This document shows positions 1 through 11,090 of a DNA stretch of 33,097 nucleotides, piece by piece. The translations under genes were made by a program, and so were the position numbers. This stretch comes from Synechococcales cyanobacterium bin31.maxbin.ball.101 (GTDB lineage Bacteria > Cyanobacteriota > Cyanobacteriia > Leptolyngbyales > Leptolyngbyaceae), in contig JAAFJU010000043.1 in the NCBI GenBank assembly GCA_013298165.1, positions 1 to 33,097 of the forward strand, written 5' to 3'. The notes beneath the pieces are model-generated. The model did not search any database and had not been told where the DNA came from. It saw nothing but the letters and a program-made list of their open reading frames with translations. Position 1 is the stretch's first letter. Every line of letters begins with the position of its first letter.

Positions 1-1
1 G

Positions 2-562
2 ATTGGGGACTCTGTGGATGATGTCTGTGGCGTGATTCATTTAAAAGAGTTAGCTGAGCCATTGGTCCAGGGGACATTGATTCTGGATAGCCCCATTCAG
101 CCCTGGATTCGGCCTGCACGCTTTGTTCCGGAGTATACGCCATTGGGTGAGTTGTTGACGTTAATGCAACGATCGCGCCATCACATTGTGGTGGTGGTGG
201 ATGAGTTTGGCAGTACGGCGGGGTTGGTAACGATTCAGGATTTGATTGCGCAGATCATTGGGGAGTCGCCGGAAAATGAAATGGAAACGGTGAATTTAAT
301 TCAACGCATTGATGCTCATACATTCATTGTGCAAGCGCAGTTATCCCTGGAAGAAGTCAACGAAAATCTCCGTCTCGATCTCCCCGCTTTGGATGAATAC
401 CATACGCTCGGGGGCTTGTTGCTCTATCAGTTTCAGCGCATTCCCGGCGAAGGCGAGACCTTACAGTATGGCAATTGTGAAATGACTGTCATTGCAACGA
501 TCGGTCCCCGCCTCGACCAAATTCAAGTCCGACGCCTGGAGCCATTGCCACCAGAGGAGTAG
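2..562 (+). CDS. CorC/TlyC (HlyC)-type CBS-domain protein, C-terminal part
   Basis: The reading frame is open from base 2, so the gene starts outside the window and only its last ~186 codons are present. The visible part begins in the first CBS repeat (GVIHLKEL). It continues through the second CBS repeat, whose signature is HHIVVVVDEFGSTAGLVTIQD. It ends in a CorC_HlyC transporter-associated domain (GGLLLYQFQRIP, then GCEMTVIA-like text reading NCEMTVIATIGPRLDQIQVRRL). Family members carry an N-terminal DUF21 membrane domain, which would lie upstream. They are inner-membrane proteins linked to Mg2+/Co2+ efflux, although 'hemolysin' is the historical annotation. The exact substrate cannot be read from this part. 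The gene converges on the HNH remnant at 609-814. Confidence 0.9.
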   Translation: MGDSVDDVCGVIHLKELAEPLVQGTLILDSPIQPWIRPARFVPEYTPLGELLTLMQRSRHHIVVVVDEFGSTAGLVTIQDLIAQIIGESPENEMETVNLIQRIDAHTFIVQAQLSLEEVNENLRLDLPALDEYHTLGGLLLYQFQRIPGEGETLQYGNCEMTVIATIGPRLDQIQVRRLEPLPPEE

Positions 563-608
563 AAATCATCTTTCCATTGTGCTGACGCCTGGGTAGAGCG
601 ATCGAATT

Positions 609-814
609 TTAATCTTGAGGTGGATGTTGACCGACACGATTCCATAGTTTGCGAAGATTCTTTAGAGCGGGGCGGTTCATGGTGAGTGCTGCAATCGTTG
701 CTCGACCGGATGCCGTGAGTCCATGAGTGCTTCGGCAGTTTGACAATAGGCACAGCGGTTTTTGAATTGCGATCGAATCTGTCGTTGAAGTTTGACTGGA
801 ATGTATGGACTCAC
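609..814 (-). pseudogene. HNH endonuclease with internal deletion and frameshift
   Basis: Reading down the minus strand from a GTG at 814-812, the first ~32 codons give VSPYIPVKLQRQIRSQFKN followed by RCAYCQTAEALM. This is the start of a small cyanobacterial HNH endonuclease family, including the first Cys-x-x-Cys pair. At about 717-720 the frame breaks. In another frame the text resumes as GLTASGRATIAALTMNRP and then ALKNLRKLWNRVGQHPPQD, ending in TAA at 609. That is the C-terminus of the same family as I recall it. The central part with the HNH catalytic histidines (about 60 residues by my memory of the family) is missing. The GTG start overlaps the stop of the upstream gene (GTGA), so the pair was translationally coupled. 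The pseudogene call is strong; the loss of activity is inferred. Confidence 0.82.
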
Positions 815-1134
815 GCGGCGCTCGCCTGATTGAAGTACTGAAGGGTATATTGAGCGCGGGCTTTCAGAATATTAAGTTGGTCGAGTTGATCAAGAAGCCG
901 ATCGAGGGTTTCGAGTTCTTCTGTGGAGAGTTGGTTCTCGGTGTTGCGTGCGAGGAGATCGCTGAGTTTGTCTTGTTCTGCGGGGGCGATCGCAATCTGT
1001 GCAAGGGCTTGCAGTTCGGCGGGGCTGACGTTGGTGAGAAGGTCTTCGTCTTCGAGACCATCTAGAAATTGCTGCTGCTTTTGGCGTGGCAGAATTTGGA
1101 GTTTGTTGACGATCGTTTGGCTCAGGGAAGTCAT
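811..1134 (-). CDS. 107-residue partner of the HNH gene, hypothetical
   Basis: This is a small acidic, helical, leucine-rich protein without signal peptide or membrane segment. The C-terminal half (LLARNTENQLSTEELETLDR, then LLDQLDQLNILKARA) resembles a cyanobacterial family that I recall being encoded just before HNH endonucleases. Its stop codon overlaps the GTG start of the broken HNH gene, which supports a two-gene module. An antitoxin-like or immunity-like role would fit the arrangement, but nothing in the sequence proves it. The start is the ATG at 1134; no clear Shine-Dalgarno sequence precedes it. The gene is intact although its partner is not. Confidence 0.7.
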   Translation of the reverse strand: MTSLSQTIVNKLQILPRQKQQQFLDGLEDEDLLTNVSPAELQALAQIAIAPAEQDKLSDLLARNTENQLSTEELETLDRLLDQLDQLNILKARAQYTLQYFNQASAA

Positions 1135-1267
1135 AAGTGGATGGAGTGATGACTTGAGGTGACTGGGTTTATTCTAGCGGATCTGGCAAGGGTAGGACGA
1201 TCGGGAGATGAGAGTTACTTTTGTCGCGATCGGAGTTGCAATGCAGCGTCCGATCGCTCCATTCAGT

Positions 1268-1477
1268 CTAGACGTACCATTTGGTCATAACGGATAGAAA
1301 TTGACCCGGTTCGTCTGGTTTGGATTGGATCTTGCTCCAGTCGGCATGGTCGCAGAAGTGGAGAGTGCAGAGGTGGTCGATTGTTGGTTGGAGTCGATCG
1401 CGGGGACCCATGACGAGAATGCGCACGGGTGCGGCAGTGAACGCACGATCGCTACTGAGAGGTCTGGATATATTCAT
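1268..1477 (-). CDS. small conserved-looking hypothetical protein, 69 residues
   Basis: The encoded peptide has a hydrophobic strand-like segment (APVRILVMGPRDRL) followed by a helix and HLCTLHFCDHADWSKI, and it ends in FLSVMTKWYV. This looks like a compact alpha/beta protein rather than random translation. It resembles short cyanobacterial hypothetical proteins with a VLVMGP...DWS...GEVMTILT layout, but I cannot name the family. No membrane segment or signal peptide is visible. It stands alone between two small modules, with more than 100 bases of non-coding DNA on either side. Its function is unknown. Confidence 0.55.
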   Translation of the reverse strand: MNISRPLSSDRAFTAAPVRILVMGPRDRLQPTIDHLCTLHFCDHADWSKIQSKPDEPGQFLSVMTKWYV

Positions 1478-1594
1478 TAGATTTTGTTGAAAATCTGTGG
1501 CGTTGACCGATGCTTGTATCTGAGCAACGATCCTGATTAGAGGACGATCGGCTTTCCATGGCGCTGACGGATGGGCAGGTCGGGCAAATCGATC

Positions 1595-1972
1595 TTACTC
1601 ACTGAGTAGAGACGAAATAGTGACAGTGCCACCAACGATCGTATCCATCTGATATCGGTATCCCTTGAGCAAACTCATTCCAACTAATGGCGTTGTTTCT
1701 GCGGCATTGATTTCAATTCGTCGCCGCTGTCCATCCCAAATCACAACTCCGGTATAGATATCGAAAGCACACAGACTTCCATCCCCGAGAAAACCTTCTT
1801 CGCTACCGTAATAACGCAAACCCAGTTCATGAATGGTTTCAAGTGGAAGGCTGAGGAATCCAGTAAATCCAGTATCTACGATCGCGTCTAGGGCTGTTCT
1901 TTTGTCTTCAGCGTTGCCAACGACAAGACGAAGGGTCGCTTCATAGCGTTCATCAATCTTTCCAAAAATCAT
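1595..1972 (-). CDS. clan AA (retropepsin-like) aspartic protease
   Basis: This 125-residue protein carries the Asp-Thr-Gly catalytic triad of retropepsin-like proteases at residues 33-35, inside AIVDTGFTGFLSLP. The second hydrophobic motif, PLVGMSLLKGYRYQMD, lies near residues 94-110. The length and layout match the single-domain cyanobacterial 'clan AA aspartic protease' family, which must dimerise because each chain provides one catalytic Asp. There is no signal peptide, so it should be cytoplasmic. It starts six bases after the stop of the 88-residue gene upstream, so the two are almost certainly co-transcribed. Substrate and role are unknown. Confidence 0.85.
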   Translation of the reverse strand: MIFGKIDERYEATLRLVVGNAEDKRTALDAIVDTGFTGFLSLPLETIHELGLRYYGSEEGFLGDGSLCAFDIYTGVVIWDGQRRRIEINAAETTPLVGMSLLKGYRYQMDTIVGGTVTISSLLSE

Positions 1973-1978
1973 AGAAGC

Positions 1979-2245
1979 TTAAAGTAGACGACCAATTCCA
2001 AAGCGATGTACGGCACGATGGCCAATCCGAATACGCCAGATCACGGCATCGGGATGATGTTCAAGAAGTCGATCGGAGGCTGTCATCGTGTCTTCAGCAA
2101 TTTCAAAGGCTCCACTTTCGATGTCTATGGCGATAATTTTGCCGTGGTTATTTGCTTCGACTTGCGATCGGAGTTGGGTTTCGTAAAGGGTATTGCCACG
2201 TTGGGCAGTTTCTTCTTTGGTGTAAGGAGGATATTGAACTGTCAT
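1979..2245 (-). CDS. 88-residue partner of the clan AA protease, hypothetical
   Basis: The protein reads YPPYTKEETAQRGNTLYE near the start, then HGKIIAIDIESGAFEIAEDT, and ends in VIWRIRIGHRAVHRFG. I recognise this layout from a widespread cyanobacterial hypothetical family usually followed by a clan AA aspartic protease. It has no catalytic motif that I can see. The gene ends six bases before the protease start. The pairing of a small helical protein with a small enzyme resembles toxin-antitoxin architecture, but this is inference from layout. The ATG at 2245 lacks a clear Shine-Dalgarno sequence. Confidence 0.78.
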   Translation of the reverse strand: MTVQYPPYTKEETAQRGNTLYETQLRSQVEANNHGKIIAIDIESGAFEIAEDTMTASDRLLEHHPDAVIWRIRIGHRAVHRFGIGRLL

Positions 2246-2305
2246 GGGATTGACCTCGCTTTGACTGGTTCTATCTTAGCCGATCGGCGGGATAGGGTGG
2301 GGTGG

Positions 2306-3304
2306 TCAACAAGAGACTGATAAGCTAGGTCGAAAAGATGATGATTCAATCGAAGTATCGTCTATCCATTTCTCAGGTGTAGGCTTATACCACCAATATT
2401 CTAGAATCTCTTGACTAACATAGTTAGTAAGGTCTAAATCTGGCCATATGTGCAATTTTTCTATACAGCCAACTTCATTTGCTGCTGATTCAAGTTCAGC
2501 CCACTGTTTTATAAAAGATTCAGCCCAATGCTTCTGTTCTGTTATTGAATGCACAAAGTCTAATCCAGCAGCTAACATTCGCTTACCATTAGTTCCACGC
2601 GCATTGATAGGCTCCCAAAAAACCACTTCAGGATTCACCTCTAGAATCTTTTCAAAGTGCTTCTTAAAGTTCACTCTTTTCATTTGCGGCGGAGTCGGTG
2701 CCATTGCAATATAAATTCGACAACCAGCTTTCCGTCCCTCTAACACAGCTTTGTATCTAACACTAGGTGGAGGTGCTTGAGGCTCAATCTGCCTACTAAG
2801 ATCATCATCTAAATACGGAATGCTCATACCGACAGTGACATTTGGATGGACTAAAATATCCAAATCTTGTAACCACAACGGACTCCGAGTGAGAATTCTT
2901 ACTCGCCGACCATACTCCAATAGGACCTTTATAGATTCTCTAGTTATGGATGCAACTTCTCTATTTTGGTAAGGATCTGTTCCTGAACAGAGAAGAACAA
3001 CTCCTTTTCCTGATGGGGTTGTTCTCCAAGAACGCTGGCGGCTGAGCTTATCCCGCAATTTATGAGGTATACCTTCTCTAATGAACAAATATTTTCCCCA
3101 ATCCATTTGAGGACTAGTAACACCTCTCTGAATTAATTCTGCTTGTTTAGTCCGAATAGCAGGAGTGGATGGTACGTAACAGAAAGTGCATCCATGTAAG
3201 CAACCAGATGCAACATTTATCACATAATCACATAGCCCTTTTTTGCTGAGAGCACTCTGTTGTAATGGACTGACTATGGTTTCGTACCCTTTCGTAATAG
3301 ACAT
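2306..3304 (-). CDS. radical SAM protein, spore photoproduct lyase (SplB)-like family
   Basis: This 332-residue protein has a CX3CX2C cluster (C35, C39, C42 in GCLHGCTFCYVPS) that binds the radical SAM 4Fe-4S cluster. Later segments fit a partial TIM barrel: GKGVVLLCSGTDPYQ, RVRILTRSPLWLQD and HPNVTVGMSIPYLD. This layout matches SPL-family radical SAM proteins, which generate 5'-deoxyadenosyl radicals and often act on nucleic acid. A role in repairing spore photoproduct is not expected in a cyanobacterium. It starts 37 bases after the TcmP gene and is surely in the same operon. The DNA is AT-richer than its neighbours and free of CGATCG sites, which suggests transfer. The reaction and substrate are unknown. 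Confidence 0.85.
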   Translation of the reverse strand: MSITKGYETIVSPLQQSALSKKGLCDYVINVASGCLHGCTFCYVPSTPAIRTKQAELIQRGVTSPQMDWGKYLFIREGIPHKLRDKLSRQRSWRTTPSGKGVVLLCSGTDPYQNREVASITRESIKVLLEYGRRVRILTRSPLWLQDLDILVHPNVTVGMSIPYLDDDLSRQIEPQAPPPSVRYKAVLEGRKAGCRIYIAMAPTPPQMKRVNFKKHFEKILEVNPEVVFWEPINARGTNGKRMLAAGLDFVHSITEQKHWAESFIKQWAELESAANEVGCIEKLHIWPDLDLTNYVSQEILEYWWYKPTPEKWIDDTSIESSSFRPSLSVSC

Positions 3305-3341
3305 ACCTCAACTCTCCCTTTGTAGAATAGACAGTAACTGC

Positions 3342-4613
3342 TCAAGGAATCTTTTTCACGTCAAAGACAAAGAGTTGTTTGTGTTTTGCTCGTCTAATTA
3401 TATCCTGGCGCTGTAGAGTTATTTTCTTTCCTTGAATAACTTGACCTTTTCGCTCCACTTCAATTTCAGATTCATATCTTAATTGATTCAGGTACTTCAT
3501 ATAATGTCTCTTGCTTGCAGGATTTTGCTCCATAGTCAACTCTGATATTTGCCTAAATGTTACACCATCTGGGTTGTCATTAACAATTTTTCCAACATCA
3601 CGGCTTAGATTATTGATGCAAAATTCTTCGCTACTTTGGGTGATATCAAACTTCAGAGATATCTGTCCCTCTTCATAGTAATCAGATGACTTGAAACCAT
3701 AACCATAAATTTCAAAATAGTACTGATAATCTAAAGTATTTTCTTTCCAAAAACTATCCTTGACAACTTCTAGTGCAGTCAAATTACCTGACATATGCAT
3801 CAAATAATACAAGACTCTCACATTACCTTTTGCGATTAAAGAAAAAGTAAAGACGTACTTAGCATTACCTTTTTCTCTAAATAAACGCATTGATTCATTT
3901 CGCAAATAGCATTGTTCGCCAATTGTCCCCATTTTGCTCGAATCGGCTTTCTCATAATATCCATCTGCTTCTAAAATATTCTGAAAGCTGGACTTCTGTG
4001 AATCATGGCGTTGAGCAATAAACCTCTCGATAAAATCAATCATATAGGTGTATATAATCTCAGACCCAGGAATAGAATTGATTTTTCTAATTGTACTCAT
4101 AGATACTTGAGTCCAACCAAATGGATCTAGTAAGAAGAATGAATGACCTTTTTTTAGACTGACTGAGAAAATAATCGAATTAGCTAAATGTTCAAATTCA
4201 CCGTGAAAAAATTCACATTGCTCTGAATTAGCGATCATATCTAATCCTGCTTTGGGTAGAGCGTAATTTTGCAGACAGTCTAAATGCTCCTTGTTACTAT
4301 CAGAAAAGATGTATTTAACATTTAAAGGATAGGCTCTCTTTGATCTAAGTCTGCCAGCCTCTACTGCTCTAATAATTCTGATTGGTGATCCTTCCCATTC
4401 TTGATTGGAATCCTCTGGGTCTCTGTACATTCCACCACCACAGAAAGCATCAACAAACGTGAATTCTGTCACCCCATAACGACCTTTTCCGTAAAGCGTG
4501 AAGATGAGATTTTCAATATATTCCTCTAAAATCTTGTGTTTTGCCTTTGTATGAGGCTCGACTGCAGGTAGATCACTTCCATCGAAGCTCCATATTGCTT
4601 GATTTTTTCCCAT
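3342..4613 (-). CDS. tcmP: three-Cys-motif partner protein TcmP
   Basis: I recognise the TcmP family from its N-terminal half. FVDAFCGGGMY (residues 53-63) resembles the SAM-binding loop of class I methyltransferases. FSDSN (103-107) and LLDPFGW (161-167) follow in the right order, the last resembling the catalytic DPPY/DPFG loop. The C-terminal third (NPDGVTFRQISELTMEQNPA onward) looks like a winged helix. TcmP proteins are named for being encoded beside a three-cysteine radical SAM-like protein, and that is exactly the gene downstream here. I use the ATG at 4613, preceded by GGAG six bases upstream, rather than the in-frame TTG at 4625. Length is 423 residues. A nucleic-acid methyltransferase role is inference; the biological function is undescribed as far as I know. 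Confidence 0.85.
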   Translation of the reverse strand: MGKNQAIWSFDGSDLPAVEPHTKAKHKILEEYIENLIFTLYGKGRYGVTEFTFVDAFCGGGMYRDPEDSNQEWEGSPIRIIRAVEAGRLRSKRAYPLNVKYIFSDSNKEHLDCLQNYALPKAGLDMIANSEQCEFFHGEFEHLANSIIFSVSLKKGHSFFLLDPFGWTQVSMSTIRKINSIPGSEIIYTYMIDFIERFIAQRHDSQKSSFQNILEADGYYEKADSSKMGTIGEQCYLRNESMRLFREKGNAKYVFTFSLIAKGNVRVLYYLMHMSGNLTALEVVKDSFWKENTLDYQYYFEIYGYGFKSSDYYEEGQISLKFDITQSSEEFCINNLSRDVGKIVNDNPDGVTFRQISELTMEQNPASKRHYMKYLNQLRYESEIEVERKGQVIQGKKITLQRQDIIRRAKHKQLFVFDVKKIP

Positions 4614-4659
4614 AAATATCTCCAAGTAGAAACTAAATGTTTACATCTCACCGACATTT

Positions 4660-4688
4660 ATTCTAGTACCTGCGTACTCAATACGCAA
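4660..4688 (-). promoter_or_regulatory. candidate sigma70-type promoter of the tcmP/radical SAM operon
   Basis: On the minus strand, TTGCGT (4688-4683) and TAGAAT (4665-4660) are separated by exactly 17 bases. The -10 box matches TATAAT at five of six positions. Transcription would start near 4653, leaving a leader of about 40 bases before the ATG at 4613. The spacing and position are good, but the promoter is predicted by eye only. Confidence 0.5.
4671..4687. promoter_or_regulatory. palindrome overlapping the -35 box, candidate operator
   Basis: TGCGTA-CTCAA-TACGCA is a perfect 6-bp inverted repeat with a 5-bp centre. It covers most of the -35 hexamer and the spacer of the promoter proposed for tcmP. 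A repressor bound here would block RNA polymerase. No obvious regulator gene is encoded in the operon, so the binding protein could be TcmP itself through its winged helix or a factor elsewhere. The regulatory role is inferred from position. Confidence 0.45.
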
Positions 4689-4939
4689 ATAAAATCTATG
4701 TGTTACTTTATACGAAATCTTTTGAGAAAGCCTAGTTAGGATATTAGTTACATTGGAACGTCTACCCACTAGGGACAAAGTTAGATGGAGAATTAATCTC
4801 AACTCAAGATCTAATGACCTTTATCACAACAATAATCCCCCTTCACTCAAGTTCAGCCGGAGTCAACCCAAGATCGATCGTCCCACCATCCATCTCCCCG
4901 TAGTACGATCGCAATCACCCAAACGATCGCATCCCAACC
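4689..4939. other. non-coding DNA upstream of the tcmP promoter
   Basis: No convincing gene is seen between the tcmP promoter and the 68-residue gene at 4940. The first part is AT-rich like the tcmP operon. From about 4860 the normal base composition and the CGATCG sites return, so the right edge of the transferred segment probably falls near 4740-4860. I see no insertion-sequence ends or tRNA fragment at this edge. Confidence 0.4.
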
Positions 4940-5146
4940 ATGACAAATCCCACACTCGAAAGACTATCTGCCACCGACGCCCAAGCCATTCTCGATCGCC
5001 TCCCCACCCGCATCCAAACCGCACTGATCGATCGAGCCACTGAAATCAAATATCCGGTCGAAATGGTCGTTGAAATGGCGATCGCTAGCTTCCTCGATTC
5101 AGAAGCCTTAGGCTTTGTCGATTGCAAACCCGGACGAGGGCAATAA
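4940..5146 (+). CDS. small hypothetical protein, 68 residues
   Basis: The protein reads as helices: LSATDAQAILDRLPTRIQTA, then LIDRATEIKYPVEMVVEMAI, and it ends in ASFLDSEALGFVDCKPGRGQ. The segment spacing (a helix, 'YPVEMVVEMAIASFLD', then a glycine-rich tail) resembles short DNA-binding or antitoxin-like proteins, but I cannot assign a family. Codon use and HIP1 sites match the host genome, so it is probably native. No partner gene is adjacent on the same strand; the gene converges on the HigA-like antidote gene. The start is the ATG at 4940. Confidence 0.6.
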   Translation: MTNPTLERLSATDAQAILDRLPTRIQTALIDRATEIKYPVEMVVEMAIASFLDSEALGFVDCKPGRGQ

Positions 5147-5153
5147 ACTAACA

Positions 5154-5450
5154 TTAGGCAACCAGTCGTTCTTCCTCGCTCACCACCGACAATCGCAAAC
5201 CCAAATCATTCAACAGTTTTGCAAAGTCAACTAAACTCGGGGGTTCAGACTGAGCAAGAATCCGATCGACCCGTTCCCAACTTAAGTCTCGAACACCATT
5301 TTGTCGCTGTGCCTCAACCACATTTTTAAGTGCCAGCATAATGTGCTGTGGATCAGCCTCCTCCAACACTGCCTCAATGTAGGCAGAAGCTTCGAGCGGA
5401 TCCCGAAGCGACTCAACCAAAAATGAATGATAGGACTTACTTTTAGTCAT
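5154..5450 (-). CDS. HigA-family addiction-module antidote protein
   Basis: This 98-residue protein has the layout of the 'putative addiction module antidote' family. An N-terminal segment (SLRDPLEASAYIEAVLEEAD) is followed by a helix-turn-helix region (DLSWERVDRILAQSEPPSLV) and a hydrophobic end (LLNDLGLRLSVV). Members normally neutralise a RelE/HigB-type toxin encoded just upstream in the same operon and bind DNA to repress the promoter. Here the upstream toxin is reduced to its last ~32 codons (5454-5552), three bases before this ATG, so the antidote appears to be an orphan. It may persist as a regulator or an anti-addiction gene. The start is the ATG at 5450. Confidence 0.8.
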   Translation of the reverse strand: MTKSKSYHSFLVESLRDPLEASAYIEAVLEEADPQHIMLALKNVVEAQRQNGVRDLSWERVDRILAQSEPPSLVDFAKLLNDLGLRLSVVSEEERLVA

Positions 5451-5453
5451 AAA

Positions 5454-5552
5454 TCACCTCTTCTGAAACTCATCCCAATATTGTTTTGCAGTTAGAATAT
5501 CGCGTGCCTGACTACTTTTATCACTGCCACATAGGGTAAAATCCGCTGACAA
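5454..5552 (-). pseudogene. C-terminal remnant of a RelE/HigB-type toxin
   Basis: Between the photolyase stop and the antidote start, one minus-strand frame reads LSADFTLCGSDKSSQARDIL followed by TAKQYWDEFQKR and a TGA at 5456-5454. The segment LCGSDKSSQARDI...AKQYW is the typical C-terminal end of RelE-family toxins paired with HigA-like antidotes (LLCGGDKSSQ...DI..AK.YW). A TAG at 5555-5553 closes the frame upstream, and no N-terminal toxin sequence is seen. The rest of the toxin was lost, apparently at the junction with the photolyase gene. The identity rests on motif recognition. Confidence 0.75.
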
Positions 5553-5570
5553 CTACGTAGACAAATCAGG

Positions 5571-7010
5571 CTATGCGATCGCCGCTTTCTGAGCCGCATA
5601 GCGCTCTTTAAATTGGCGTTGCTGGACGGCATGATCGACGATCGGTTTGACGTAGCCGAGACGATCGCGGAGGGATTTCTCAAGTTCTCCTGTGAGTAAT
5701 AGTTTAGTTTCGACTTTGGCGAGTTCGGGGACCCATTGGCGAATGTAATCGGCACTTTTGTCGAACTTCTGCGCTTGCGTCCAGGGATTGAAAATACGGA
5801 GGGGTTTGGGGTCCATGCCGCTGGATGCACTCCATTGCCAGCCGCCATTGTTTGCAGACAGATCGCCATCCACTAAGCGCTGCATGAAGTACTTCTCACC
5901 CAGTCGCCAATCCAAGATCAAATCTTTGGTTAAAAAGCTTGCGACAATCATGCGGCAGCGGTTGTGCATCCAGCCTGTTTCATTCAACTGCCGCATGGCT
6001 GCATCGACGATCGGATAACCCGTTCGGCCTTCGCACCAGGCTTCAAAGGTGCGATCGTCATCGTTCCAGGGAAATTGTTTAAACTGATCGCGGTAAGGTC
6101 CATCGGCAAGACTCGGGAAGTGATACATGACCTGTTGGTAAAATTCACGCCAAGCCAATTCCTGTTGCCAAGTTCGCACCCCAATTTTAGCTTCATCGCT
6201 TTGACAAACCTTCATTGCCTCTAGCGTTGTTTTCCAAATATTCCGAATGCCGATCGTCCCAAACTTTAAAGCCGGACTTAAGGTCGAAGTGCCCGGTTGC
6301 GAAGGATAGTTACGATCGTCGTCGTAGGCTTCAATTTGTTTAGTTGCAAATTCATCTAATCGCTCCTGTGCCGCGATTTCTCCCGGTTCTAAGACCTGTT
6401 CCCCAGACCAAACAAATCCAAGTTCTTTGAGGCTGGGAATGGGTCTTGCACCGTGGGTTTGGGCGATCGTTTGTTGGTCGGAGGTGAGGCCGATCGCGCC
6501 TTCTAATGTGGGATAGGGAGATTTCTTGTCTTTTGAAATCCAATTTTTCCAAAAGGGACCATACACGGTGTAGGGTTCGTTTTTAGCTTTAGAGACAATG
6601 TCAGTTGGCGTATGTAAAAGCTGATCCCAAAATGTTTCGACTTCGATTCCGATTTCACGCAGGGCTTTGATCATCGCATTATCACGAGCCTGTGCGTAAG
6701 GCTCTACATCCCAATTCCAAAAGACGTGACTGGCCCCGATCGCTTTGGCAAACCGAGGAATGATCTCTGTAGGATTGTCTTGGAAGATAAGAAGCTCACT
6801 GCCAGCGGCTTGGTACCGATCGCGCAGAGCTTTCAGCGAACCTAAAAGATAGTCCACTCGTACGTCTGCTATGTCGTCTGAGTTTAGGATTTTGGCATCT
6901 AGGCAAAAGAGACCGACGACGTTGCGGGTTCGATCGCGGGCCATGGAGAGACCGGCGTTGTCCGCAATGCGAAGATCGCGACGATGCCAAAACAAAATTA
7001 AATCAGACAT
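5571..7010 (-). CDS. phr: deoxyribodipyrimidine photo-lyase, class I, 8-HDF type
   Basis: This enzyme uses blue light and FADH- to split cyclobutane pyrimidine dimers in DNA. The N-terminal Rossmann-like antenna domain opens with LILFWHRRDLRIADNAGL. The segment FWDQLLHTPTDIVSKAKNEP followed by YTVYGPFWKNW matches the cyanobacterial enzyme that carries an 8-hydroxy-deazaflavin antenna. The FAD-binding part holds SPALKFGTIGIRNIW, TWQQELAWREFYQQVMYH, GYPIVDAAMRQLNETGWMHN and DGDLSANNGGWQWSA, all hallmarks of the family. I take the ATG at 7010 (479 residues) over an in-frame TTG at 7022. The 3' end abuts the toxin remnant, so the right edge of the accessory islet lies at this stop codon. Confidence 0.96.
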   Translation of the reverse strand: MSDLILFWHRRDLRIADNAGLSMARDRTRNVVGLFCLDAKILNSDDIADVRVDYLLGSLKALRDRYQAAGSELLIFQDNPTEIIPRFAKAIGASHVFWNWDVEPYAQARDNAMIKALREIGIEVETFWDQLLHTPTDIVSKAKNEPYTVYGPFWKNWISKDKKSPYPTLEGAIGLTSDQQTIAQTHGARPIPSLKELGFVWSGEQVLEPGEIAAQERLDEFATKQIEAYDDDRNYPSQPGTSTLSPALKFGTIGIRNIWKTTLEAMKVCQSDEAKIGVRTWQQELAWREFYQQVMYHFPSLADGPYRDQFKQFPWNDDDRTFEAWCEGRTGYPIVDAAMRQLNETGWMHNRCRMIVASFLTKDLILDWRLGEKYFMQRLVDGDLSANNGGWQWSASSGMDPKPLRIFNPWTQAQKFDKSADYIRQWVPELAKVETKLLLTGELEKSLRDRLGYVKPIVDHAVQQRQFKERYAAQKAAIA

Positions 7011-7058
7011 TTCAGAACTCAAGACTTAGTATTTTATTCTTCTAGGTTATTGCAGAGG

Positions 7059-7176
7059 CCCGATCCCCCTAACCCCCTTAACAAGGGGGGACCGGAGTTT
7101 TCTAGATAAGGAGCGAAGTATCTTCCATCCTCTTTCTCAAAGTCCCCCTTTTTAAGGGGGATTTAGGGGGATCGGG
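7059..7176. repeat. REPIN-like paired hairpin repeat, C/G-run family
   Basis: The element starts with CCCGATCCCCCTAA and ends with its exact complement TTAGGGGGATCGGG, a 14-bp terminal inverted repeat. Each end also contains its own small hairpin (CCCCCTT...AAGGGGGG and CCCCCTT...AAGGGGG). A related single unit lies at 12817-12854. The element fills the gap between the photolyase and NUDIX genes. Confidence 0.75.
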
Positions 7177-7203
7177 TGTTGGCTGACAACGATCACGATC
7201 GCA

Positions 7204-7746
7204 TTACAGCATAACCAAATGCCGCACCATCATAAAGGCTGAAATGGTTTTGGAGTCAATGATTTCGCCTGATAAAATTGCTTTTTCCACAGCTTCTGGC
7301 GTCATACACAACACTTCAATATCCTCATCTTCATCCTGATCCGGCGGGCTTTCGAGTTTGGTTAGACCTGTCGCTAAAAAGATCCCGACCGCTTCGTCGG
7401 AGTATCCTGGTGCAAGCAGAATATCGCCCATAAATTTCAAGGTTTCAGCGCTGTAGCCCGACTCTTCCTGGACTTCGCGCTCAGCAGTACTCAGAGCGGT
7501 TTCACCAGGTTCGATCGTGCCTGCGGGAAATTCTAAAATTCGGCGCTGTACCGTGAAACGATATTGTTTCAACAGTACAAGTTCACCACTCGGCAGCACT
7601 GGAATCACCAACGCGCCGCCGGGATGACGAATGCACTCTAACTCTCCTTCGACTTTGTTCGGGAGTCGATAGCGGTTGACCTCGTAGGCAAACTTACGAC
7701 CCTGATAAAACAATTTACGACGGAGCAGTTGGGGCGGTTCTAACAT
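7204..7746 (-). CDS. NUDIX hydrolase, probable ADP-ribose pyrophosphatase
   Basis: The Nudix box GX5EX7REUXEEXGU is complete at residues 76-98 (G76, E82, R90-E91, E94-E95, G97). It is preceded by EFPAG, typical of ADP-ribose pyrophosphatases. The N-terminal part (FAYEVNRYRLPN, then ALVIPVLPSGELVLLKQYR) fits the dimerising beta-sheet of that subgroup. The enzyme would hydrolyse ADP-ribose or a related nucleoside diphosphate linked to another group, using Mg2+ bound by the box glutamates. It is 180 residues, normal for the family. The start is the ATG at 7746, 26 bases downstream of the folK stop, so the two may be co-transcribed. Confidence 0.92.
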   Translation of the reverse strand: MLEPPQLLRRKLFYQGRKFAYEVNRYRLPNKVEGELECIRHPGGALVIPVLPSGELVLLKQYRFTVQRRILEFPAGTIEPGETALSTAEREVQEESGYSAETLKFMGDILLAPGYSDEAVGIFLATGLTKLESPPDQDEDEDIEVLCMTPEAVEKAILSGEIIDSKTISAFMMVRHLVML

Positions 7747-7772
7747 ATGTTGTTACAAAATAATAGAGACAA

Positions 7773-8273
7773 TCAATTCTGATGAAGTTTAACGTCTGAG
7801 CAATCTACCCTTTGACAGAGCTGTTCGATCGATCGGGACGAAACTGGATCAATCCAATCCGGCGCAATTTCCGCAAGGGGCACCAGGACGAAGGCCCGCT
7901 GTGACATGCGAGGATGGGGTAATTCTAGCTGGTCTGTGGTGAGTTGGCGATCGTCATAGAGCAATAAATCCAAATCCAACGTCCGCGCCCCCCAGCGCTC
8001 ATTTCGCACCCGCCCAAACTGATCTTCGATCCCCAGGAGTAATGTCAGGAGTTCATGAGGTGAAAGATGGGTTTCAAGAATCGCGCAGCCGTTTAGATAG
8101 TCCGGTTGCGGTGGACCCACGGGAGCGGTGAGGTACCAAGACGATCGGCAAATCAATTTCAGTTGCGGATGGTTGGCAAGGGTTTCGATCGTGGCGTTGA
8201 GGGTTTGTAGGGGATCGCCGAGATTGGCTCCAAGGGCGATCGCACAGCGAGACGGAAGAGGAAGATCGGTCAT
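7773..8273 (-). CDS. folK: 2-amino-4-hydroxy-6-hydroxymethyldihydropteridine diphosphokinase
   Basis: HPPK transfers pyrophosphate from ATP to 6-hydroxymethyl-dihydropterin in folate synthesis. The signature pieces are present: CAIALGANLGDPLQTL at the start, SSWYLTAPVGPPQPDYLNGC in the pterin site, and the ATP/Mg2+ motif RWGARTLDLDLLLYDD followed by LPHPRMSQRAFVLVPLAEIAP. I place the start at the ATG at 8273 (166 residues). The longer open frame back to 8333 runs into the neighbouring repeat and adds a low-complexity stretch foreign to the family. The product acts in the cytoplasm. Confidence 0.93.
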   Translation of the reverse strand: MTDLPLPSRCAIALGANLGDPLQTLNATIETLANHPQLKLICRSSWYLTAPVGPPQPDYLNGCAILETHLSPHELLTLLLGIEDQFGRVRNERWGARTLDLDLLLYDDRQLTTDQLELPHPRMSQRAFVLVPLAEIAPDWIDPVSSRSIEQLCQRVDCSDVKLHQN

Positions 8274-8290
8274 AACAGGTAATAAAAGAG

Positions 8291-8396
8291 GCCCCCCAAC
8301 CCCCAATTCTGGGGGAGCCGATCCGCAAATCAACTCCCTTCAGAATTAACGGTTAGGGGATTATCATGTCCCCCCAGAATTGGGGGTTAGGGGGCG
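8291..8396. repeat. REPIN-like paired hairpin repeat, C/G-run family
   Basis: Two inverted copies of a unit with core CCCCCAATTCTGGGGG face each other at 8291-8315 and 8370-8394, separated by about 54 bases. Each copy can fold alone, and the two can pair with each other. It lies between gyrA and folK. Single related units occur at 14694-14718 and 18232-18260. Confidence 0.75.
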
Positions 8397-8423
8397 GTTC
8401 ACCAGGATTTAACGCTTCAAATC

Positions 8424-11090
8424 CTAGTCTTCAGCGTCATCTTCAGCCACGTCATCTGCTTCTACAGAATCCGTTTCTTCAACCGTTTCTGCATCCACCA
8501 AGATCGCTTCATCATCACCCTCCTCATCCAAATCCTCCGTAGACTCACCCGTCAATGGCACCACCGCCACTGCACTGATGGCATCGGATTCGTCTAAGCG
8601 CTGCAATCGCACACCTGTCGCAGGTCGAGACTGTCTGGAAATGGCATTGACCAATTGACGAATGATGATGCCGCGCTGAGTCACGAGCATCAGTTCTTCG
8701 CCTTCGTTGACCATGGTGAGGGCCGCAAGCGTATCGCCTTTTTTGCGGAACTTCGTGGCAATGATGCCCATGCCGCCCCGGTTTTGCAATCGGAATTGGC
8801 TGACGGGGACGCGCTTGCCGAGACCGCCTGTGGTGACGATCAAGATCCAAGGACCTTGGTTTTTGTCATCGACGAGTTCTTCAGTGCTTTCATCGTCACT
8901 GCCGGATTCCAACAGCGCCGCATATTCCGCCAAGAGTTGACTGGAAACGATCGCCATTCCCACCAAACTGTCATCTTTTTTCAGGTTCATCGATCGAACC
9001 CCACGAGTCGCACGGCCCAAAGGTCTGAGCTGTTCGTTATTGACGCGGAAGTGAATCGATCGGCCTTGGCTCGACCCAATGATGATGCTATCGGCCGCAG
9101 TCGCCAAACTCACCCAACGCAATTGATCGCCTTCTTCCAGGGAAATCGCAATCAAACCATTGACCCGAATGTTTGCAAAGGCAGACAGCGCAGATTTTTT
9201 AATGAATCCTTTTTGGGTCAACATGACGAGATACACGTCATCTTGGAATTCACTCACCGGAACCACTGAAGTGATTTTCTCGGTTTTAGTAACTTGAATC
9301 AATTGAACCAACGGCGTGCCTCGGGCAATCCGGGAACAGGTCGGGATTTGATACGCCTTAATCGCGTAGACGACACCCCGATCGCTAAATAGCATGACGA
9401 CATCATGATCGCAGCAGGTAATGAAATGATCGATCGCATCATCGACCTTCATCTTCGCGCCTGCTTTACCGCGAGTGTTGCGGCTTTGGGCCTCAAAGGA
9501 ATCCACGGGCATCCGTTTGATATAGCCTTGCTCAGTGATCAGAATGACGGATTTCTCATTGGCAATGAGATCCTCGTCCATCAATTCATTTTCACTTTGC
9601 TCAATCCGCGTCCGACGTGGCGTGGAATGATTCTTTTTAAGTTCTGCGACTTCCTCTGTGATAATCGCCAACACCCGTTCCCGGCTGGCCAAAATATCTC
9701 TGAGATCCGTAATCAGAAGCATTAATTCATCATGCTCTTTTTCAATCTTGCCTGCTTCCAAGGCCGTCAATCGTCGCAATTGCATTTGCAAGATCGCATC
9801 CGACTGCAATTCAGACAGGCCGTAGGTTTCAATCAATTCAGCTTTGGCGATCGCAGAGTCTGCCGATCGACGAATCAACGCAATGATCGCATCCAAATTC
9901 GCCAAGGCCGTAAGCAACCCTTGCAGCAAATGATCGCGCTCTTCAGCCTTGCGCAATTGATAGCGCGTCCGACGGGCAATGGTTTCAATTCGGAAATCCA
10001 GGAAGGTGGCTAGAAATGCCCGCAGCGTCAAGGTTTGCGGCTCATTGTCCACTAGGGCCAACATGTTTGCGCCGAAGGTGGATTGAACCGGGGTTTGTTT
10101 ATAAATATTGTTCAGAACAACGCGGGGATAGGCGTCGCGCTTGAGTTCGATGACGACGCGCATTCCGTCCCGATCGCTTTCATCGCGAATATCAGAAATG
10201 CCTTCAAGTTTCTTATCGTTGACCAATTCGGCAATTTTTTCAATCAACGCTGCTTTATTGGTTTGGTAGGGCAGTTCGGTGATGATGATGGCTTCCTTAT
10301 CGGGAGCACCGCGCCGCTCCAGGGTTTCAAAGGATGCCACGCCGCGCATGACGATGGACCCGCGACCTGTGGTGTAGGCTTCTCGAATGCCGCTCTTGCC
10401 ATTAATCACCGCGCCCGTGGGGAAGTCAGGACCGGGAATATACTGCATCAGTTCGATGTCAGTGATGTCGGGATTATGAATCATCGCCATCAAGCCATCG
10501 ACGACTTCGCCGAGGTTGTGGGGCGGAATGTTGGTCGCCATACCCACGGCAATACCTGCGGAGCCGTTGATGAGAAGCTGCGGCAGGCGCGACGGGAGGA
10601 CGGTGGGTTCCTGCTGAGAGGCGTCGAAGTTGTCGGCGAAGTCTACGGTTTCGGATTCGATGTCTTGGAGCAGGGAATGGGCGGTGAGGGAGGTCAGCCG
10701 GGATTCCGTGTAACGCATGGCGGCGGGAGGATCGTTATCGATCGACCCGAAGTTCCCATGGCCGTCAATGAGGGGCGCACGCATGGAGAAGTCTTGAGCC
10801 ATCCGCACCAATGCGTCGTAAACAGCGGTGTCACCGTGGGGGTGATACTTACCGAGCACTTCCCCGACCACACGAGCACATTTTCTAAAGGGCCGATCGT
10901 AGTTCAGTCCCAGTTCGTGCATGGCATAGAGAATGCGACGGTGAACGGGTTTCAGTCCGTCACGGGCATCGGGAAGCGCACGACCAACGATAACGCTCAT
11001 GGCGTATTCTAGGTATGAGCGCTGCATCTCGTTGCGCAGGTCAGTCGGAACAATGCGTTCCACGTTCGGCGTGTCTTGAGAAAAGGTCAT
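8424..11090 (-). CDS. gyrA: DNA gyrase subunit A
   Basis: Gyrase A is the breakage-reunion subunit of the enzyme that introduces negative supercoils. The N-terminal domain has [20 protein letters not shown] and the catalytic Tyr at residue 127 (AAMRYTES). The quinolone-resistance region reads [20 protein letters not shown], with Thr88 and Asp92 at the places of E. coli Ser83 and Asp87. The gyrase-specific GyrA box is present as QNRGGMG near residue 768, in the six-bladed C-terminal domain, which separates it from topoisomerase IV ParC. The C-terminus ends in a strongly acidic tail ([18 protein letters not shown]). Length is 888 residues, normal. The start is the ATG at 11090. A perfect TATAAT lies about 100 bases upstream. 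Confidence 0.97.

Follow-up and report, generated by a model that had tools for sequence, protein, structure and literature searches.

A tcmP gene paired with an SplB-like radical SAM gene in a cyanobacterial contig: a candidate two-enzyme mobile module with an exchangeable partner

In the cyanobacterial contig examined here, a tcmP gene is followed on the same strand by a gene for a radical SAM protein whose predicted fold resembles that of spore photoproduct lyase (SPL), and this partner differs in family from the DUF5131 protein that usually stands beside TcmP. All coordinates refer to the window, that is, the whole stretch of 33,097 nucleotides that was analysed. The reading we favour, and hold with middling confidence, is that the two genes form a mobile anti-phage module of two enzymes that modify nucleic acid, with a radical SAM half that can be exchanged. 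Since the TcmP-DUF5131 pair is a widespread, experimentally untried candidate for phage defence, the variant is of some relevance, and scans that require DUF5131 will overlook it in cyanobacteria and haloarchaea. The features of the locus are as follows.

2287-4874, strand not applicable: AT-rich stretch without CGATCG
2306-3304, minus strand: SplB-like radical SAM coding sequence (332 amino acids; model pLDDT 91)
3179-3202, minus strand: CX3CX2C motif, C35-C39-C42 (these cysteines and C25 invariant across all 38 rows)
3305-3341, minus strand: intergenic gap of 37 bases from tcmP to the radical SAM gene
3342-4613, minus strand: tcmP coding sequence (ATG at 4613, 423 amino acids; alternative TTG at 4625, 427 amino acids; TIGR04474 150.3 bits)
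3450-3668, minus strand: C-terminal winged-helix-like region (PF22560, GMT-wHTH, 26.6 bits, cut-off 27)
3741-4556, minus strand: TIGR04474 region, predicted RlmJ-like methyltransferase fold
4113-4133, minus strand: LLDPFGW motif of TcmP (35 rows: D163 invariant, P164 and G166 conserved in ≥90%)
4425-4457, minus strand: glycine motif FVDAFCGGGMY, motif I of TcmP (35 rows: D55, F57, G59 and G61 conserved in ≥90%)

Layout, composition and surroundings

The first-pass annotation had delimited a two-gene segment at 2306-4688. The pair is real, whereas the end at 4688 lies upstream of both possible tcmP starts, the ATG being the more likely one. The spacing given for the two genes was exact, as was the count of 19 G+C in a 60-base stretch inside tcmP (3661-3720). 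The G+C content is 37.9% in 2306-4625 versus 51.8% in the remaining window, and 377 of 2261 60-mers within the pair region have 19 or fewer G+C, compared with 399 of 30,777 outside. Likewise, GC3 is 0.30 and 0.31 in the two genes and 0.40-0.66 in the 20 other window ORFs of at least 150 codons. A lack of CGATCG had also been remarked upon, and this was borne out: the window holds 181 sites, none of them between 2281 and 4875. No other gap in the window matches this one of 2594 (the second largest is 1599), and when 181 sites were placed uniformly 20,000 times, a gap as long arose twice. The deviation in composition extends from the comparison with the window's other genes to that with the flanks of relatives. 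At all 40 cyanobacterial loci measured, the G+C content of the pair is below that of its flanks, and the overall density of CGATCG is 0.19 per kb in the pair versus 1.62 in the flanks, the exceptions among the 40 being L059 (zero in both) and L079 (slightly higher in the pair). No Rfam element was detected at Rfam thresholds in window 1-8500, and scans for promoters (9 versus a shuffle mean of 8.1) and terminators (3 versus 1.9) gave no excess.

The pair is patchy, the gene being found in 4 of 42 genomes of the window's family and in places on plasmids, and the hosts found for the SplB-like pair are cyanobacteria and haloarchaea. A recent insertion with a clean empty site was considered and set aside: comparison of the flanks with three same-genus genomes gave no junction, and none could be set because the shared flank pieces (the photolyase side at 5576-7017, a small gene at 4952-5145 and short patches of 58-311 bases) sit in different places. 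The photolyase-like gene, recognised by eye, occupies 5571-7022.

Predicted folds of the two proteins

The window TcmP matches TIGR04474 over residues 24-295, well above the curated cut-off of 53, and both motifs reported for it at first are present. The methyltransferase fold proposed from those motifs is upheld by the structure model, for which the top VIA-align match is RlmJ, the 23S rRNA m6A methyltransferase (Z 15.8, 218 residues), although identity is 11% and TcmP adds the winged-helix-like region; in plain Foldseek order, TYW4 and COMT are on top. DPPY is the catalytic motif of N6-adenine methyltransferases, and TcmP departs from those of the RlmJ type in carrying DPFG instead. Residues 328-408 of the model form three helices and two strands, and a relative paired with DUF5131 (L006) scores 75.0 against PF22560.

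The partner scores 35.3 against PF04055 (Radical_SAM; cut-off 29.5). Its earlier description as SPL-like holds for the fold and fails for family membership: SPL is the top fold match of the model (Z 19.9, rmsd 3.2, 260 residues), but identity is 12%, the score against the SPL family PF20903 is 11.8 where the cut-off is 27, and genes of the window type mostly adjoin tcmP. Moreover, neither of the spore photoproduct lyase models TIGR04070 and TIGR03886 lists the window protein at E ≤1. A predicted SPL-like fold in common shows no function, and the next fold match is SuiB (Z 16.1). A possible counterpart of the catalytic hydrogen-donor cysteine of SPL (C140/C141) is C106, which 24 of the 38 rows share; among the 14 others, 13 carry a cysteine at column 111 instead. 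The nearest NCBIfam relatives by sequence are the PA0069, Rv2578c and rSAM mobile pair B families (84.5, 60.3 and 46.2 bits), but the protein falls far under their cut-offs of 360, 430 and 410. DUF5131/Gp37_Gp68 (PF07505) is not listed for it, and the window's own genome contains no DUF5131 match at E ≤1e-10. Searches for solved structures gave no convincing relative of the two proteins, either from single sequences (best E 0.07 and 0.032) or from profiles (best E 0.19 and 0.042), and none for the DUF5131 protein of locus L005 (best E 0.83).

In the favoured reading, TcmP would be a SAM-dependent methyltransferase with an RlmJ-like fold and a C-terminal winged helix, and its partner a 4Fe-4S radical SAM enzyme with an SPL-like fold. 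Both would most likely target one nucleic acid, the radical SAM enzyme altering a base by radical chemistry and TcmP methylating that site or one close by. The nucleic acid of the phage, or else a host RNA on which the phage depends, would in this way be changed during infection; it is the substrate, the order of the steps and the defence purpose that we infer. Radical SAM activity would be supplied by at least two families, SplB-like and DUF5131. The pair encodes no nuclease or known toxin domain, and a restriction-type outcome would therefore need another gene.

Pairing, partner exchange and phage context

The two genes are consistently adjacent, as had been anticipated, both in a survey of 386 genomes of the cyanobacterial phylum and in the collected loci. 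All 11 full-length SplB-like relatives in the survey adjoin tcmP, and a TcmP ORF of at least 260 amino acids adjoins the radical SAM ORF at 53 of the 62 loci where the latter reaches at least 300. Within 2 kb of 55 of the 56 TcmP matches in the 386 genomes there is a DUF5131 or SplB-like gene; the partner is DUF5131 in 44 and SplB-like in 11, which agrees with the earlier statement that the Gp37/Gp68 type is usual. A plain operon was rejected as the rule, because orientations vary (co-directional, divergent and convergent) and it is the neighbourhood that persists. The window locus resembles NCBIfam's TIGR04474 TcmP in combining a full-score match with an adjoining three-Cys radical SAM gene, but the partner is a CX3CX2C SplB-like protein, DUF5131 being more usual. 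The DUF5131 motif is CX6CX2C in most cases examined, and sequence likeness between the two families is confined to the surroundings of the cysteine motif.

TcmPs that group with that of the window have a DUF5131 partner, and the radical SAM gene therefore appears to have been exchanged. One of them, at L162, shares 60% identity and the same gene order with the window, and its downstream partner is DUF5131; on a tree of 89 rows the partner changes six times, three of these being forced by starred branches. Because this half varies in family while TcmP is nearly unchanged, the results suggest that the module needs radical SAM activity rather than one particular protein, which makes the chemistry testable: a modification common to both partner types would reveal it. 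Relatives of the radical SAM gene also occur without an adjoining TcmP, namely three (L033, L037 and L041) among the 11 long plasmid matches, and those at G028, L071, L100, L109 and L115, so that the enzyme would have some TcmP-independent role.

In all four of the TcmP-bearing temperate Gordonia phages examined, TcmP and DUF5131 adjoin the annotated immunity repressor, TcmP being next to it and on its strand. DUF5131 lies within 1 kb in 13 of 14 TcmP loci in IMG/VR, the 14th TcmP reaching the contig end, and the DUF5131 partner is also found in phages of soil bacteria. TcmP at first seemed almost missing from phages, in part an artefact of single-sequence searching, since a profile recovered it in three more of the phages examined (Fairfaxidum, Bosnia and BaxterFox). 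Genes co-expressed with a phage repressor can be defence genes, as in the example of CarolAnn, where the genes concerned are RexAB-like and other than TcmP or DUF5131 (PMC6426606).

The phage or defence context first proposed for the pair gains some backing from these phages, from PADLOC candidates and from one Nostoc plasmid in which a relative of the pair lies near BREX genes; protection itself we infer. Of the three outcomes named beforehand as speaking against the first interpretation (no methyltransferase fold, rare adjacency, ordinary composition), none arose, composition being judged against the window's genes and the flanks of relatives. The window TcmP matches PDC-M30A (PDLC04566, E 2.4e-20) and PDC-M41A (E 5.6e-9), and both PDC-M30 and PDC-M41 consist of two adjacent genes, but PDC-M30B and PDC-M41B are DUF5131, whereas the SplB-like partner of the window has zero matches among the PADLOC models, that for the B gene of PDC-M30 included. 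The PDC label stems from prediction by guilt by embedding and is termed "nonexperimentally validated" in a study that reports PDC-M30 from 32 strains of Pseudomonas aeruginosa out of 100 (PMC10855318). At 71 loci the closest genes on either side, at most two on each, were taken, giving 258 references, of which 246 were scanned with PADLOC in two sets (129 in A5 and 117 in A6, which are groupings rather than true alignments), and the 12 of L121-L123 were left out. We claim no defence-island enrichment, because the scan gave families rather than protein counts and had no background control. When ten large neighbours were chosen by eye, eight gave a match at E ≤1e-10 and two did not. Neighbours of at least 90 amino acids mostly show no recurrent theme, the largest common cluster spanning 7 of 71 loci. 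Several observations count against the favoured reading, namely the lack of an encoded nuclease or known toxin domain, DPFG in place of DPPY, the scarcity of recurrent neighbours, a neighbour scan that had no background control, a PDC label that is predicted, the radical SAM relatives with no adjoining TcmP, and the two loci (L059 and L079) where CGATCG density is not below that of the flanks. Among the literature matches listed, a set outside the scope of which preprints fall, none is a functional study of TcmP, the DUF5131 partner or the pair.

Competing readings

A different account, possible although we consider it doubtful, is a toxin-antidote logic. By itself TcmP would harm the cell by methylating a host RNA, as its RlmJ-like fold might suggest, and the radical SAM enzyme would forestall or undo that harm; infection would disturb this equilibrium, whereupon the infection would be aborted by the cell. 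Solitary radical SAM genes of phages would then be counter-defence. The state of the genes is consistent with this. Among 51 uninterrupted TcmPs in the 386 genomes, 50 adjoin a full-length radical SAM partner and one (G195) has a partner cut by the contig end. A broken tcmP stands beside an intact partner at G127, G350 and G358 of the survey and at L053, L058, L064 and L091 of the collected loci, and since no intact TcmP with a broken or absent partner was recognised in the loci examined, TcmP without its partner may be deleterious or serve no purpose. However, L053-L091 were collected via the radical SAM protein and are biased to intact partners, leaving an asymmetry of 3 to 0 once they are set aside, some tcmP interruptions may stem from misassembly of metagenome bins, and the partner counts are those of the cyanobacterial phylum, whereas TcmPs occur in other phyla too, for example in 67 plasmid records. 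Gene order is also often convergent or divergent, which is not the arrangement of most toxin-antitoxin operons. Solitary radical SAM genes do occur in viruses, TIGR04474 having no match in 10 of the 16 phage records picked by hand or in any of the four IMG/VR contigs that carry an SplB-like gene. Yet solitary phage DUF5131 genes are longer than paired ones (290-398 amino acids as annotated in 10 genes, versus 248-252 in four TcmP-paired phages) and may serve another role, and identity to the window protein is just 29-35% for three of the four proteins from IMG/VR. We know of no demethylating radical SAM enzyme of such a kind. The account in its fullest form, with TcmP as a conditional RNA- or DNA-methylating toxin tolerated only beside a radical SAM antidote, two families of hardly any common sequence acting as antidote and solitary phage copies acting in counter-defence, seems to us rather unlikely; if true, it would be an anti-phage system made from two SAM enzymes with opposing chemistry.

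The rank of RlmJ, an rRNA methyltransferase, as the top fold match of TcmP would suit a housekeeping or conditional RNA-modification pair unconnected with phages, but we find this unlikely in view of the patchy distribution, the plasmid and prophage locations and the low G+C content. It is quite improbable, in our estimate, that the genes are a DNA or RNA repair pair in which organisms exposed to sunlight would use the SplB-like enzyme against photoproducts or alkylation damage. The predicted SPL fold, the cyanobacterial and haloarchaeal hosts and the photolyase-like gene nearby would fit such a role, but the SPL models are unmatched, the gene is patchy, low in G+C and plasmid-borne in places, the photolyase-like stretch is kept in three same-genus genomes without a match to either gene (one of the three is 69% complete), and phages of soil bacteria carry DUF5131, the exchangeable partner. 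A peptide- or metabolite-modifying pair of the natural-product type, to which the place of SuiB and other radical SAM peptide enzymes next in the fold ranking might point, is very improbable given how seldom neighbours of at least 90 amino acids recur.

A paralogous stretch (G000:C160) matches window 581-1585, mostly at 95-97%, and 4906-5145, but not the pair.

The gene pair and its predicted products

The window, contig C281 of a 356-contig assembly (5.39 Mb), carries two adjoining genes, delimited here by ORF reading:

3342 to ATG 4613 or TTG 4625, minus strand: tcmP
3304 to 2306, minus strand: radical SAM gene, 37 bases after tcmP

The first-pass annotation had described this arrangement, and profile searches confirmed it, with TcmP scoring 150.3 bits against TIGR04474 (cut-off 53) and the second product 35.3 against PF04055 Radical_SAM (cut-off 29.5). 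Its description of the latter as like spore photoproduct lyase (SPL) held for the predicted fold, since SPL was the best match of the model (38 rows, mean pLDDT 91; Z 19.9, rmsd 3.2, 260 residues), followed by SuiB (16.1) and by viperin and RlmN (near 15), but not for family membership, where the score against PF20903 was 11.8, below the cut-off of 27; the closest NCBIfam models (PA0069, Rv2578c and rSAM mobile pair B) were all far below their cut-offs. The TcmP model (35 rows, pLDDT 84.6) best matched E. coli RlmJ (Z 15.8, rmsd 3.2, 218 residues), and firmly predicts the methyltransferase fold that had been proposed from sequence motifs. Because further SAM methyltransferases followed at Z 12-15 and plain Foldseek placed TYW4 and COMT on top, the designation RlmJ-like, towards which the model leans, is weaker than that of a methyltransferase fold. 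Across the 35 rows, D163 of the DPFG motif did not vary and the glycine motif was almost invariant. The C-terminal part of TcmP scored 26.6 against PF22560 GMT-wHTH, just below the cut-off of 27, and a DUF5131-paired relative scored 75.

To the left of the pair (811-2245, minus strand), small ORFs resemble, by eye, toxin-antitoxin or protease-like genes, and 581-1585 has a near-duplicate in another genome (G000:C160; 95-97% over most of the stretch).

Constancy of the pairing and apparent exchange of the partner

Full-length radical SAM matches were found in 4 of the 42 genomes of the window's family, plus one fragment, and three of the four adjoined tcmP; a TIGR04474 match was not found in the fourth genome, G028, and neither pair gene was matched in three same-genus genomes (one 69% complete). 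The solitary G028 gene (C73, locus L133, ORFs 5564-9823) has terminase-like ORFs and a small ASCH-like one in its vicinity, judged by eye, and is probably located in a prophage. Among 386 genomes drawn across the phylum (threshold E up to 1e-20), the radical SAM protein gave 13 matches in 12 genomes, and TcmP adjoined all 11 that were full-length and neither of the two fragments, so that the rarity of adjacent homologues, which would have spoken against the first-pass annotation, did not occur.

Scanning 84,980 species genomes yielded at least 71 loci; those listed comprise 51 from cyanobacteria and 20 from haloarchaea. A radical SAM ORF of at least 300 aa was present in 62 of the 71 listed loci, the remaining nine having shorter ones only. 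In 53 of these 62 it adjoined a TcmP ORF of 260 aa or longer, including loci with split (L053, L058) or truncated (L070) tcmP and one with both genes split (L114). Among the other nine, L060 and L102 were cut by contig ends, tcmP was broken in L064 and L091, and TcmP was not detected beside the radical SAM ORF in L071, L100, L103 (the G028 contig described above), L109 and L115. Among the matches listed, 17 of the 39 cyanobacterial pairs were co-directional with tcmP first and 22 divergent, and 11 of 14 haloarchaeal pairs had a second radical SAM paralogue within the locus. Eleven plasmid records had a match covering 80% or more of the radical SAM protein; TcmP adjoined in eight (seven annotated, L042 by tblastn), and none of the other three (L033, L037, L041) has TcmP annotated beside the radical SAM gene.

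Two radical SAM paralogues accompany TcmP in L034, L035, L040 and L099, at least one of them with an extra cysteine-bearing N-terminal region in the first three. Five cyanobacterial loci (L063, L064, L065, L066, L069) have one flank of the pair in common, including ORFs that resemble rnpA and yidC, which places the pair at one chromosomal site in these five.

When TcmP was taken as the starting point, the 386 genomes gave 56 TIGR04474 matches (two being pieces of one gene, in G350), whose partner within 2 kb was a DUF5131 (Gp37/Gp68 family) protein in 44, a SplB-like protein in 11 and neither in one, a fragment in G423; as stated in the first-pass annotation, the usual partner is of the Gp37/Gp68 type. 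Conversely, TcmP adjoined 43 of 79 DUF5131 matches. The cysteine motif was CX6CX2C in each of 24 DUF5131 proteins in which it was read; those of L162 and L163 instead have CX3CX2C, which is also the motif of the SplB-like partner. PADLOC assigned TcmP proteins to the phage-defence candidates PDC-M30A or PDC-M41A; both DUF5131 proteins submitted to it were assigned to PDC-M30B/M41B. It returned no match for the SplB-like partner (the window's own and three from TcmP loci, one of L032 and two of L034).

An 89-row TcmP tree (28 rows DUF5131-paired, six of these from phages, most with long branches) requires six changes of partner label, three of them forced by starred branches, and shuffled labels require an average of 24. 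The window's TcmP clustered with those of G074 and G086 (L162, L163), with SH-aLRT 87, and 88/89 in a careful 42-row tree, although by plain identity the SplB-paired L070 TcmP was slightly closer (65% over 311 columns). The window and L162 TcmPs are 60% identical over 416 residues and the gene order is the same, with a gap of ~35 bases in L162, but the gene downstream of L162 tcmP encodes a protein of the DUF5131 type. In BLASTP, the best stretch that this protein shares with the window's partner covers 18 residues surrounding the cysteine motif. SplB-paired rows came together in 0/200 bootstrap trees (42-row tree); an AU test gave p 0.044, which is borderline given that the group tested was chosen in view of a first tree. 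The window's pair is the SplB-like-partner version of an already known PDC candidate, TcmP with DUF5131, with evidence of partner exchange.

Phages, viral contigs and a possible defence role

DUF5131 relatives occurred in 161 of 50,697 phage records, and the SplB-like protein gave only matches of 25-30% identity, in eight. Among 16 hand-picked phage records, in which counts are not rates, six had a TIGR04474 match and the other ten had DUF5131 without TcmP. DUF5131 adjoined TcmP in five of the six, and was looked for in these five only, the sixth (Ssp-JY39) having been found through TcmP. In four Gordonia phages (Fairfaxidum, Bosnia, BaxterFox and WelcomeAyanna), an annotated immunity repressor comes next past TcmP on the same strand, and the displayed stretch of three of them includes an integrase on the other side. 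In Gordonia phage CarolAnn, genes co-expressed with the repressor are described as forming a different type of defence system, one that has been tested (PMC6426606). The BaxterFox DUF5131 gene (L136:2501-3232, plus strand) is unannotated, short opposite-strand ORFs being annotated there instead.

In IMG/VR, 14 TcmP loci were found, 13 with DUF5131 within 1 kb and one with TcmP reaching the contig end; none of the 14 had a SplB-like partner beside TcmP. Four viral contigs carried a SplB-like gene (58% identity in one, 29-35% in three) and, on these contigs, which may be fragments, no TcmP match was found. One of them (L124:1526-5665) has, by eye, two PAPS-reductase/DndC-like ORFs on its left side.

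The pair is best read as an anti-phage module of two SAM enzymes modifying nucleic acid. Since the constant feature is TcmP with some radical SAM enzyme, the latter probably makes or primes the TcmP substrate, or checks TcmP activity. We infer the defence role from the PADLOC candidates, prophage position, mobility, patchiness and individual loci, for instance on a plasmid of Nostoc sp. C052, where BrxA, BrxL and PglZ lie nearby. The earlier proposal of such a role was reasonable and is partly supported, the phage and defence context and the assignment of TcmP by PADLOC agreeing with it, while modification and defence themselves are predictions. PDC systems are described as putative and nonexperimentally validated in PMC10855318, where, of 100 P. 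aeruginosa strains, 32 are reported to carry PDC-M30 and 68.8% of these carriers to be phage-resistant, a correlation only. For Sinorhizobium meliloti (SMa2243/SMa2245), a published expression table lists a TcmP gene beside the defence gene Hna (PMC12445080).

Composition, disruption and an intein-like insert

As the first-pass annotation had noted, the pair is AT-rich and free of CGATCG (HIP1) sites: G+C is 37.9% in 2306-4625 and 51.8% in the remaining window, and both genes fall in a CGATCG-free gap of 2594 bases, longer than any other in the window and reached in 2 of 20,000 uniform placements. GC3 is ~0.30 for both genes, compared with 0.40-0.66 in the window's 20 further ORFs of at least 150 codons. 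Low G+C and CGATCG scarcity are not peculiar to the window's genome. In the 40 loci among L053-L097 with a measurable pair span of 1.8-6 kb, the pair was lower in G+C than its flanks in all 40 and lower in CGATCG density in 38 (totals of 18 sites in 94.9 kb of pairs and 928 in 573.2 kb of flank), the exceptions being L059, with zero in both, and L079, slightly higher in the pair. Either repeated horizontal transfer or a base content that the module itself maintains would be consistent with this.

In the TcmP-first survey of 386 genomes, 50 of the 51 uninterrupted TcmP matches had a full-length partner, and in G195 the partner was cut by a contig end; the stop in the G294 radical SAM match is the end of its 322-aa ORF. 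Where TcmP was broken, the partner was intact in G127, G350 and G358 and absent in G423. The radical-SAM-first survey added, among the matches listed, broken tcmP with intact partner in L053, L058, L064 and L091, and both genes appear damaged in L076 and L114. Neither survey gave a recognisable case of intact TcmP beside a broken partner. This 7-to-0 asymmetry is suggestive, but four of the seven cases stem from the radical-SAM-first survey, which is biased towards intact partners, and some breaks may be assembly errors.

In L091-L094 (Okeania, Lyngbya and a Microcoleaceae genome), an insert of ~330 codons lies in the SplB-like gene immediately before the third cysteine of CX3CX2C, for example:

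L093:8861-10819, plus strand: insert-bearing SplB-like gene

In L093 and L094 the insert contains a LAGLIDADG_3 domain, which suggests an intein interrupting the cluster-binding motif.
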